Both the position numbers and the translations under genes were made by a program. A stretch of 42,887 nt of DNA from Archangiaceae bacterium (GTDB taxonomy: Bacteria > Myxococcota > Myxococcia > Myxococcales > Myxococcaceae). Position 1 is the first letter of the stretch. The number at the start of each line of letters is the position of its first letter. A model generated the notes under the pieces. That model saw nothing but the letters and a program-made list of their open reading frames with translations. It was not told the origin of the DNA and did not search any database. Positions 3,115-6,774 of the stretch are shown here, one piece after another. The stretch lies in NCBI GenBank assembly GCA_016879935.1, contig JAACJQ010000237.1, forward strand, positions 1-42,887, written 5' to 3'.

Positions 3115-5328
3115 TCAGCCGCCAGGCGAGGTGGGCGTCGCAGGCGTGGGCGCCGAGGGCGTCGGGGTGACGATGGGGTCCACCGGCTTCGGCGCCTTCG
3201 CCTCGGCGATGCGCTGGCTCAGCATCACCTCGAGCGACTTCGCGAAGGAGGCGACGCTGGGGTCGACGCTGCCCTGAGAGGTCTTGATGGCGGCCCACAG
3301 CGGCGCGTCGGCCTGCGACTGCTTCACGAGGCCCGTGACGAGCGAGTCGAGGGCAGCGGCGCGGTCGGGCTCCGAAGCGGTGCGCAGGGCAGAGAGCAGC
3401 TCCATCGGGGCATCGTGCGCGACGACGGCGAGCTGCTCGGCGAGGAAGGCCGCGTTCAGCTCGTCACTCGCGTTGAAGCGCACGAACTCGAAGAGCCGCG
3501 AGACGGCCTCGAGGTGACCCGACGCCGCGAGCTCCACCAGGCTGGGCAGTACGGGCACGTCGAGCTGCGCTTTCTTCGCCGAGTCACGCAGCCGGCCGAA
3601 CACCTCGTCACTCGCGACCGCGCTGTCGAGGAAGATGCGCACGTTCGCCGGCTCCTTCGGGTCCGAGAGAATGAGCGCGTCGGCGATGACGGCGCGCACG
3701 GCCGGGTCTTTCTCGCTGCGCCACGCGGTGCGGAGGAATGGTGCGTTGCGTTTGTCGCCTTTCTGGCCCATCGACACGTACGTCTTGAGGCGCGACTCGA
3801 GCTCGGCCTGCGACGAGACGACCGACGGAGGCCGCATCATCGAAGCGACCGCCGACGCCGGGCCCTCGCTGCTGCCGAGCGCCGCGACCGCCGCGCCGAG
3901 CGCGTCGATGTGCTGCACCACCGACGACGCTCGCCCGGGGAAGTCGTTCACCATCACCGAGAAGACGAAGCGCTCCGAGCCCACCGACTGCACGTAGCCA
4001 GAGAGCGCCGACACGTTCTCGAGCGTGCCCGTCTTCGCGCGCAGGCGGCCGACGGCCTCGCTGCCCTCGAAGCGGTACTTCAGGGTGCCGTCCTTCGCGG
4101 CGATGGCGAGCGCCGACAGGTACTCGGGCGCGATGGGGAAGCGCTGCACCATGTGCGTGAGCAGCTGCGTCGTCTGAGAGGCCGAGAAGCGGTTCGAGTC
4201 GTTGAGGCCCGAGCCGTTCTTCATCACGTAGGTGCCACGGGGAATGTGCACGTCGCGCTCGAGAAAGTCCTCCACCGCCTCGATGCCCTTCACGTGGCTG
4301 CCCGGCACGCCCTTCACCTCGGCGCCGACGGTCTTGATGAGCTGCTCGGCCACGAAGTTCGACGAGTTCTTGTTGAGGCGCTTGAGCACGATGTCGAGCG
4401 TGTCGCTCGCAGCGGCCGTCAGCATCTTCGCGTTGCCCGGAACGGTGCCGGTGCGAATGCGCCCCTTCACCTTCACGCCGCGCTGCTGCAGCAACTGCTT
4501 GAGCGTGAAGCCGAAATAGAGCGCGGGTTGATCGACCTTCTTCCACTGGCTCCACACGCCCTTCTCGAGCGGCACGACGCCCTTCACCTCGAGCTTCTGG
4601 CGAATCTTGTCCTTGTCGACGCCGCTGGTGACGGTGAAGCGGCGCTGCGTCTTGGTGCCCGTGGTGAGCTCGGACTCGACGACGAAGAAGTCGGAGGGCG
4701 GTTCGATCTCCGCCACCGCCGCAGCGCCCACCGTCTCGCCGGGCCGCAGGTACACGCCGACCGAGTTCCAGTTGAGCGAGAGCGCTCCCGTCGGGGCGAG
4801 GTACGCCTTGTCACCGCTCTCCTGGTCGAAGCCCGGCGCGGTGCGCTCGCCGTCGAAGTACGACTCGTCGAGCACGATGCCATCGGAGATCTCCTTGAGG
4901 CCCGCGTGCACGATGTCGGCGACGATGCCGTAGAGCCGCTCGGTGGTGATGGTCGGGTCGCCGCGGCCACGCACGAAGAGCACCTTGGCCTTGCCCTCCT
5001 TGAAGTCGTGGTCTGTGAGGAAATCGGTCTCGAAGCGGAAGTCGGGGCCGAGCGCGGTGAGCGCCGTCGCGGCCGTGAAGAGCTTCACGTTCGAGGCCGG
5101 GTTGAGCAGCTCGTCGCCGTCGCGCGAAAAGACGATGGAGCCGTCGTCGAGGCTGCGCACCTGCACGGTCACGCGCGCGCCCTTCAACGTCGAGGTCTCG
5201 ATGACCGAGGTCAACGCGCGGCGGAGCGCCTCACGATCTTTCTCTTTCGCCTGCGGTGCCGGCTGCGCCGCGACCGACAGCGCGAACAGCACCACCACGC
5301 CCACCCCCACACACCCGAGTCGTCTCAC
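3115..5328 (-). CDS. dacB: D-alanyl-D-alanine carboxypeptidase/endopeptidase PBP4 (peptidase S13) with helical C-terminal extension
   Basis: A 737-aa periplasmic penicillin-binding protein that trims peptidoglycan cross-links or stem peptides. It starts at GTG 5328 with a signal peptide (MRRLGCVGVGVVVLFALSVA, cleavage near A-QPAP); there is no in-frame ATG nearby. The S13 domain covers about residues 30-480. The catalytic SxxK is S79-N-V-K82 in NPASNVKLFT, and KTG is at 432-434 in LRAKTGTLENVS. The block between them reads NGSGLNDSNRFSA, where many DacB proteins have GSGLSRxN, so the second motif is variant. Beyond the domain are about 245 extra residues, Ala/Leu-rich and helical with a repeat-like look, ending in a Pro/Thr/Ser-rich tail (PTPSAPTPATPTSPGG). 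E. coli PBP4 lacks such an extension. It is divergent from the SRPBCC gene, with 84 bp between starts. Confidence 0.9.
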   Translation of the reverse strand: MRRLGCVGVGVVVLFALSVAAQPAPQAKEKDREALRRALTSVIETSTLKGARVTVQVRSLDDGSIVFSRDGDELLNPASNVKLFTAATALTALGPDFRFETDFLTDHDFKEGKAKVLFVRGRGDPTITTERLYGIVADIVHAGLKEISDGIVLDESYFDGERTAPGFDQESGDKAYLAPTGALSLNWNSVGVYLRPGETVGAAAVAEIEPPSDFFVVESELTTGTKTQRRFTVTSGVDKDKIRQKLEVKGVVPLEKGVWSQWKKVDQPALYFGFTLKQLLQQRGVKVKGRIRTGTVPGNAKMLTAAASDTLDIVLKRLNKNSSNFVAEQLIKTVGAEVKGVPGSHVKGIEAVEDFLERDVHIPRGTYVMKNGSGLNDSNRFSASQTTQLLTHMVQRFPIAPEYLSALAIAAKDGTLKYRFEGSEAVGRLRAKTGTLENVSALSGYVQSVGSERFVFSVMVNDFPGRASSVVQHIDALGAAVAALGSSEGPASAVASMMRPPSVVSSQAELESRLKTYVSMGQKGDKRNAPFLRTAWRSEKDPAVRAVIADALILSDPKEPANVRIFLDSAVASDEVFGRLRDSAKKAQLDVPVLPSLVELAASGHLEAVSRLFEFVRFNASDELNAAFLAEQLAVVAHDAPMELLSALRTASEPDRAAALDSLVTGLVKQSQADAPLWAAIKTSQGSVDPSVASFAKSLEVMLSQRIAEAKAPKPVDPIVTPTPSAPTPATPTSPGG

Positions 5329-5412
5329 GATGCCGTCGAGTAAACTCCGGAATCGGGCTTCACCGATAGTTTGTGACGTGGTCGCTACACCCACCAGATG
5401 AGGGGGCCTCAC

Positions 5413-6162
5413 ATGGCTGAACGAACGGAAATGTCGCGGGTCATCAAGGCGCCAGCGCGCCGCATCTACGAAGCCTGGCTCGACCCCGAAGAGCACGCGC
5501 TGATGACGGGTGCCTCGACCTCGGCCGGAGAGAACGGCGCCTACACCGCGTGGGACGGCTACATCGAAGGCCGCACCATCAGCTCCGAGCCCTTCACGCG
5601 CATCGAGCAGACCTGGCGCACCACCGAGTTCCCCGACGGCGCGCCCGACAGCAAGCTCGTCATCGAGCTGACCGAGGTCGACGGTGGCACCGAGGTGAAG
5701 CTGGTGCACACCAACATTCCCGACGGGCAGGCGGGCGACTACGACAAGGGGTGGCACGACTTCTACTTCGAGCCGATGGAGAAATACTTCTCGAGCCCGC
5801 GCGAGAAGCTGCGTGAAGGCGTCGAGGCGCTCGAAGAGGCAGCCGAGCGTGCAGGTGATGCCATCGAGGGTGCCGTCGAACAGGCCGGAGAGGCCATCGA
5901 GACCGCAGCGAAGTCGGCGGCGAAGAACGTCGGCAAGGCGTTCGACCGCACGAAGAAGCAGGCGAAGCGGCAGGCCGAGAAGGCCGTGAAGAAGGGCAAG
6001 CAGGTGCAGAAGAAGGTGGCAGCGCAGGCGAGGTCCCTCGGCAAGAAGGTGCGTGCGCTGGTCAAAGGCAAGAAGGCGGCCACGCCGAAGAAGCCCGTCG
6101 CGAAGAAGAAGGCTGCGCCCGTGAAGATGAAGGCGAAAGCGAAGAAGAAGTCGAAGCGCTGA
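5413..6162 (+). CDS. SRPBCC (AHSA1-like) domain fused to a Lys/Ala-rich histone-H1-like tail
   Basis: A 249-aa protein with three parts. Residues 1-126 form an AHSA1/START-like domain: MSRVIKAPARRIYEAWLDPE at the start, the TWRTTEFPDGAPDSKLVIEL strands, and the family's closing GWHDFYFEPMEKYF. Residues 130-175 are an Ala/Glu/Gly-rich amphipathic helix region (EEAAERAGDAIEGAVEQAGE). Residues 176-249 are extremely basic, with repeated KK, AKKK and PKK motifs, ending KAKAKKKSKR, as in histone H1 tails and bacterial H1-like proteins. The start at 5413 is set by a Shine-Dalgarno AGGGGG 6 nt upstream and by the domain boundary. The tail predicts nucleic-acid or polyphosphate binding; the SRPBCC cavity predicts a small hydrophobic ligand or a chaperone role. 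Linking the two functions is inference. The zinc-ribbon gene follows after 3 nt. Confidence 0.88.
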   Translation: MAERTEMSRVIKAPARRIYEAWLDPEEHALMTGASTSAGENGAYTAWDGYIEGRTISSEPFTRIEQTWRTTEFPDGAPDSKLVIELTEVDGGTEVKLVHTNIPDGQAGDYDKGWHDFYFEPMEKYFSSPREKLREGVEALEEAAERAGDAIEGAVEQAGEAIETAAKSAAKNVGKAFDRTKKQAKRQAEKAVKKGKQVQKKVAAQARSLGKKVRALVKGKKAATPKKPVAKKKAAPVKMKAKAKKKSKR

Positions 6163-6165
6163 AGC

Positions 6166-6774
6166 GTGGGCGAGCTGCCACTGCGCGTCTTCTTCCACCC
6201 ACAGCGCGGCGCGTTCCTCAGCGACGAGGCCATCAACGCTCGCGTTGCCCGCTACCGGGGCGGCGCAGATGGCGGGTGGCGCGAGCTGAAGGGCGTTCAG
6301 GTCGAGCAGCAGAAGGACGGCAGCTTCTCGACGTCGGGAAGGCTGCCTGCGGGATTCGTCTGGGGTGACCCTTCACGGCAGGTGTTCGGGCTCGGAGGAC
6401 CAGCGCTCGTCTACGGCCCGCTCGAGAAGCGCTGTCGCGACTGCAAAGTGGACTTCGTGTTCACGGCCGAGGAGCAGCGTCATTGGTACGAGACGCTGGG
6501 GTTCTTCCTCGACGCGACGGCGGTGCGCTGCAGCTCGTGTCGGACGAAGCGGCGACGGCTCGAGCAGGCCAGGCGCGCGTGGGAGCTGGCGTCGAAAGCC
6601 GTGGACTCGACGGCGAAGTCGCACGTGGCTGTCGTGGAGGCGGGCCTCACGCTGCTCGAGCGGGGTGGGCAGGTGAAGCGCGAGAAGCTGATGATGCACG
6701 TCGCGCGCGCAGAGAAGCTCGGAGCGAACGTGCGTGCACTCCGCGAGAGACTCGGCGCTCCGTTGCGGCGGTGA
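6166..6774 (+). CDS. Zinc-ribbon (zf-trcl type) domain protein
   Basis: A 202-aa protein starting at GTG 6166, only 3 nt after the upstream stop, so probably co-transcribed with the SRPBCC-H1 gene. Residues 88-128 match the probable zinc-binding domain seen in many small bacterial proteins: C90-R-D-C93, then VDFVFTAEEQRHWYETLGF, then C122-S-S-C125-R-T-K-R. The FxFTxxEQ and CxxCRxxR features are family hallmarks. The N-terminal 80 residues (FFHPQRGAFLSDEAINARVA) are unfamiliar, and the C-terminal 75 residues are helical and basic. Such ribbons often bind nucleic acid or rRNA. With its H1-like neighbour, a nucleic-acid-associated role is plausible but unproven. Confidence 0.75.
   Translation: MGELPLRVFFHPQRGAFLSDEAINARVARYRGGADGGWRELKGVQVEQQKDGSFSTSGRLPAGFVWGDPSRQVFGLGGPALVYGPLEKRCRDCKVDFVFTAEEQRHWYETLGFFLDATAVRCSSCRTKRRRLEQARRAWELASKAVDSTAKSHVAVVEAGLTLLERGGQVKREKLMMHVARAEKLGANVRALRERLGAPLRR

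Follow-up and report, generated by a model that had tools for sequence, protein, structure and literature searches.

An AHSA1 domain fused to a histone-H1-like basic tail, a widespread architecture in the phylum of a myxobacterium

The gene at 5413 to 6162 of the window (the window being the whole stretch of 42,887 nucleotides of Archangiaceae bacterium DNA that was analysed) encodes an acidic AHSA1-type SRPBCC domain followed by two predicted amphipathic helices and a basic, histone-H1-like tail, and this fusion is a real and widespread architecture made from known parts, of which no earlier description was found in the literature searched. The reading of its function to which we incline, by a little, is that the basic tail tethers the AHSA1 domain to a polyanion, chromosomal DNA being the likeliest. 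In the incomplete literature collection that was searched no paper joining SRPBCC with a lysine-rich tail, nor AHSA1 with SRPBCC, was found and, judged by titles in that same incomplete collection, no myxobacterial SRPBCC protein of this kind has been treated. The features of the locus and the evidence on which each was placed are these:

3115 to 5328, minus strand: divergent dacB-type S13 D-Ala-D-Ala carboxypeptidase (Pfam Peptidase_S13, E 7e-91), with its start probably at the GTG at 5328
5329 to 5412, no strand assigned: divergent intergenic region of 84 bp with conserved blocks, namely AGTAAACT and a GGGG that precedes the start codon (seven genus members aligned)
5413 to 6162, plus strand: whole coding sequence of the fusion protein, 249 aa, ATG start, stop at 6160-6162 (translation, homologues)
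5413 to 5796, plus strand: AHSA1/SRPBCC domain, residues 1-128, net charge -12 (Pfam, PDB profile search, Foldseek, VIA)
5797 to 5925, plus strand: predicted acidic amphipathic helix, residues 129-171, net charge -5 (AlphaFold2 helix, hydrophobic moment)
5926 to 6066, plus strand: predicted basic amphipathic helix region, residues 172-218, net charge +15 (AlphaFold2 helix 176-218, hydrophobic moment, alignment)
6067 to 6159, plus strand: predicted disordered Lys/Ala/Pro tail, residues 219-249, net charge +15 (pLDDT, charge)
6166 to 6774, plus strand: zf_Tbcl zinc-ribbon protein (Pfam zf_Tbcl, E 1.1e-12)

The fusion gene and its distribution

The ATG at 5413 and the GGGG of the Shine-Dalgarno-like stretch upstream of it are invariant in the alignment of the seven genus members, in which an in-frame ATG at 5398 is not conserved, and so the ATG at 5413 is taken to be the right start. 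The same frame and a basic tail are kept in tblastn homologues from many families. Such comparisons of sequence confirm the predicted ORF as a genuine gene and place its joining of domain and tail beyond chance. On the minus strand a frame from 3115 to 6198 is open across the whole fusion gene and continuous with dacB, and therefore an automatic caller could pick a dacB of 1027 aa and miss the fusion gene.

Homologues were compared from the window's order, from other classes of its phylum, from a second phylum (that of the genome with locus L039) and from Chloroflexota. Going by its named relatives, the window's genome is a Myxococcaceae-like MAG. A match at E up to 1e-10 occurs in 43 of the 145 genomes of the order. 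Across the window's phylum, 38 of 47 complete homologues carry a basic tail after the domain and tailed members come from 12 families, which answers in the positive the question raised by the sequence-only reading, namely whether the fusion is conserved across genome collections. The tail is seen in 8 of 25 complete homologues of the second phylum and in none of 30 from Chloroflexota, each of these two sets being the best 30 or so matches, and all such counts depend on score cut-offs and on sampling. Two outcomes had been named beforehand as counting against the idea, that homologues mostly lack the tail and that the tail both fails to bind nucleic acid or polyphosphate and is a variable low-complexity end, and what emerged is mixed: homologues of the same phylum are mostly tailed, those of Chloroflexota are not, and the tail varies in sequence but not in charge.

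On a tree of 109 domains (128 columns) parsimony gives 14 changes of the tail (12-15 in bootstraps), at least three being forced by well supported branches, against 36.6 with shuffled labels. The tail is present throughout the main family clade (18 rows) and the clade of family f2 (8 rows). Gain or loss of the tail is frequent across the broad tree, so that the domain can manage without it, and the number of tail origins is unsure because 128 columns leave many deep forks unresolved. The tail is not a habit of the neighbouring genes, since 598 kb of related DNA (a redundant sample, all of it around homologue loci) holds 37 distinct tailed ORFs, all 37 of which are this AHSA1-tail protein, and none among about 1,100 other GC3-biased frames. 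Within its own genome a query made from the window's tail returns itself and three weak matches (E 0.13 or worse); a generic K/A/P tail query missed the window's own tail and is not used as evidence.

The domain, its helices and its tail

Pfam AHSA1 (PF08327) matches residues 12-126 (E 7.2e-15, 55.8 bits against a gathering cut-off of 22.1) and an AlphaFold2 model of the 249-aa protein, built from ten homologues, is confident over residues 1-128 (pLDDT 81-96 per 10-residue block), in agreement with the AHSA1/START-like domain that had been placed at residues 1-126 from the letters alone. A subfamily profile searched against the PDB finds the human AHSA1 C-terminal domain at the top (E 1e-18) and Plasmodium next (1.7e-11), the bacterial AHSA1 structures being weaker (E 5e-7 or worse). 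Structure comparison agrees, with an rmsd of 1.9 over 128 columns: Foldseek ranks the C-domain of human Aha1 at the top (TM 0.87 by target length), and VIA-align gives it a Z of 18.6, whereas the Aha1 of yeast and Plasmodium score about 17 and the bacterial AHSA1 structures 14-17. By profile and by predicted fold the nearest solved relative of the domain is the eukaryotic Aha1 C-terminal domain, by a margin over bacterial structures that is modest, and a common fold shows no function. The likeness to the Aha1/AHSA1 C-terminal domain (PDB 8z3h, 1x53, 6xle) is one of fold and profile, whereas identity is only about 20%, the myxobacterial protein has a basic tail and Hsp90 is absent from most of the host genomes. 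A Pfam scan finds no Aha1 N-terminal domain, with nothing else above cut-off and no room before the start of AHSA1 at residue 12.

Aha1 is a eukaryotic helper (co-chaperone) of Hsp90 and its C-terminal domain binds protein. Because the nearest solved relatives are these protein-binding C-domains, the ligand-responsive role proposed from the sequence is only one option among others, and the target of the domain may be either another protein or a hydrophobic ligand. Proteins of PF08327 belong to COG3832, the Aha1-domain (START superfamily) group that occurs in ArsR-COG3832 gene pairs (PMC2701414); in the window itself no ArsR-type gene was seen beside the fusion gene, which, unlike the members of those pairs, carries a basic tail.

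Beyond the domain the model has two helices, 129-171 and 176-218, at a pLDDT of about 50-69, and residues 219-249 stay below 50 throughout. Whole-segment hydrophobic moments are 0.48 for the acidic helix and 0.56 for the basic one, against 0.14 and 0.16 in shuffles (p below 0.001), and both modelled helices are thus strongly amphipathic, a feature that the sequence-only reading had given to a helical linker. Its description of the tail as H1-like holds too, the composition being Lys/Ala/Pro-rich, disordered and basic, but the extent it gave, about 74 residues of Lys/Ala/Pro repeats, has to be shortened: the low-complexity end is real and covers about 31 residues (219-249), and the remainder is basic amphipathic helix. 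By alignment the basic helix is recognisable also in genera g4 and g13, and both helices are absent from most other families, where the tail adjoins the domain directly. The helical stretch also gives matches to NCBIfam ZorA (E 0.0096), which lie far below cut-off and were set aside as noise of a coiled-coil kind.

Identity within the genus is 77% for the domain, 76% for the acidic helix, 69% for the basic helix and 55% for the tail, and the corresponding pN/pS values are 0.43, 0.35, 0.59 and 0.82. The helices are thus under almost the same constraint as the domain; the tail, given its pN/pS of 0.82 against 0.43, is constrained mainly in composition and weakly in exact sequence. Among homologues the tail runs from 23 to 294 residues, its sequence varies freely and its repeat units shift (KKPAA, TAAKK, RKPAR, STRAGAKAT). 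Net tail charge is +14 to +96 in complete tailed members, with a domain median of -8; every one of the 28 lineage representatives has a tail that is less positive in its first third than in its last, and acidic residues fall across these representatives from 13% in the first third to 0.2% in the last. The charge pattern (an acidic domain, a weakly charged or acidic linker and an increasingly basic C-terminus with a predicted disordered end) is conserved, though the sequence and length of the tail are not. The longest tail, of about 290 residues (L063:4810-6033, G143), has KATTARSTRAGA-like repeats after a strongly acidic stretch and belongs to a one-contig genome of 4.35 Mb.

Neighbouring genes and competing readings of the function

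By Pfam the window neighbours of the fusion gene are the S13 peptidase, zf_Tbcl and an aminotransferase V. The dacB-type S13 gene is head-to-head with the fusion gene in at least 18 genomes of family f1 and is the sole conserved neighbour there; an S13 gene is found in 90 of 91 f1 genomes, and where an f1 genome has no fusion, what lies opposite dacB varies. As judged from the alignment, the shared 84-bp promoter region with its conserved blocks allows co-regulation of the fusion gene and dacB, and conserved gene order within one clade is weak functional evidence. Outside f1 no common neighbour was seen, the neighbours differing among the loci listed, and a conserved operon is rejected on this ground together with the variable gene divergent from dacB in fusion-less f1 genomes. 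The co-oriented zinc-ribbon gene does begin 3 nt past the stop, with a GTG at 6166, as had been noted earlier, but the partnership proposed for it falls away: tblastn finds zf_Tbcl beside no other homologue, the six other genus members included, and with adjacency conserved at no relative's locus examined the gene is rejected as a functional partner. The zf_Tbcl (treble clef) family is single copy in the genome, and the protein has a long N-terminal part without a family match.

In the tethering that we somewhat favour, the basic C-terminal end would bind DNA (or RNA or polyphosphate) without sequence specificity and would concentrate the domain there, as precedents suggest. The acidic linker and the domain might loosen or gate this binding by competing for the tail, and the domain, in what is the weakest step, may recognise either another protein or a small hydrophobic compound; the partner would not be Hsp90 in most of these genomes. 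Tethering is supported by the retention of the tail in 38 of 47 homologues of the phylum and 8 of 25 of the second, by the net positive charge of the tails, by the charge gradient in all 28 lineages, by the fully tailed state of the 18-row and f2 clades and by the lack of such tails on neighbouring ORFs. Against it stand the higher pN/pS of the tail and its frequent gain or loss, and a basic tail as such does not tell DNA from RNA, polyphosphate or acidic membranes.

Among the precedents CarD of Myxococcus xanthus (PMC8156234) is itself myxobacterial and has a globular protein-binding domain, an acidic stretch and a disordered basic DNA-binding tail, and it is functional with its basic HMGA-like tail swapped for an H1 C-terminal region (PMC8156234); in contrast to the fusion protein its globular domain (CarD_CdnL_TRCF) is unrelated and its tail has AT-hook repeats. 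AlgP and PhaF of Pseudomonas (PMC9239181) have a Lys/Pro/Ala repeat tail of H1-like composition, PhaF also an amphipathic helix, and KPAA-repeat peptides of AlgP bind DNA whilst PhaF has been proposed to anchor granules on the chromosome (PMC9239181), but both are without an AHSA1 domain, the N-terminus being phasin or unknown helical. The basic C-termini of bacterial Ku are variable in length and sequence and yet affect DNA binding and bridging (PMC9638933), the Ku core domain and pathway being unrelated to those of the fusion protein.

The PhaF precedent can be taken further, into an organiser of granules or lipid whose amphipathic helices would lie on a polymer or lipid granule, with the basic tail anchoring the granule to the nucleoid and AHSA1 adding a lipid or polymer function. 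This is unlikely, even with two strongly amphipathic helices, weak matches, both below cut-off, to Apolipoprotein (E 0.009) and to Phasin_2 (E 0.074), a class I PhaC in the assembly itself and, in other members of the genus, class-III-like PhaC (TIGR01836 at E about 1e-82 to 1e-84, which does not reach the curated cut-off): no phasin profile passes (the best, Phasin_2, reaches 13.7 bits against a cut-off of 24.9), and PhaC-like genes occur also in genera without the fusion, so that PhaC distribution does not discriminate. A granule role is possible in the window's genus, since class-III-like PhaC is present there, but it cannot be the shared function, since the helices are missing in most other families. 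The class I PHA synthase (G000:C313:1-318 and G000:C396:12839-13024, L197) is apparently split over contig ends and does not occur in the genus mates, which have the class-III-like PhaC only; it may have been acquired recently, or the contig may be a contaminant.

The same charge logic that would take the tail to DNA would serve a polyphosphate- or RNA-binding protein, AlgP-like on polyphosphate or associated with ribosomes or RNA, with a tail not acting on DNA, and KPAA-tailed AlgP does associate with polyP granules (PMC9239181). We hold this, too, to be improbable; outside family f1 no neighbour recurs and hence none points to polyP or RNA metabolism. The tail might also have no dedicated function and be low-complexity sequence, almost neutral, that repeat slippage has added in GC-rich genomes. 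This reading fits lengths of 23-294, shifting repeat units and a high pN/pS, and we give it little credence: charge and gradient are retained in 28 of 28 lineages despite changing sequence and length, other ORFs in the same DNA are tailless, and no loss occurs within the 18-row family clade.

The closest solved relatives, the Aha1 C-terminal domains of human, yeast and Plasmodium, could suggest a bacterial counterpart of the Hsp90 co-chaperone Aha1 that acts on HtpG. This is very improbable indeed. In a profile search Hsp90/HtpG (PF00183) was not detected in the own genome nor in any of the seven genus genomes, and of the 37 genomes in the order that have a strong homologue (a match at E 1e-25 or better) 5 gave a match to it and 32 none; the Aha1 N-terminal domain is missing as well. 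A literal Aha1 role on Hsp90 is ruled out for most members by these missing PF00183 genes. In the order as a whole PF00183 occurs in only 69 of 145 genomes, E. coli and the other control genomes being positive.

A possible family of tethered domains

A wider proposal, and a tentative one that we think rather doubtful, is that AHSA1 proteins tethered to the nucleoid make up a family spread over the phylum, in bacteria that lack Hsp90, and that in it a relative of the Aha1 C-domain would work as an independent chaperone or ligand sensor, bound to the chromosome by its H1-like tail and gated by its own acidic linker. To our knowledge few kinds of globular head have so far been seen with an H1-like tail in bacteria. 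The fusion adds to these a widespread H1-tailed head, whose nearest solved relative is a eukaryotic co-chaperone domain and whose host genomes are mostly without the client machine of that domain. It offers a straightforward way to ask what an Aha1-type domain does where Hsp90 is missing, and whether interchangeable basic tails serve bacteria to anchor unrelated domains on the nucleoid.
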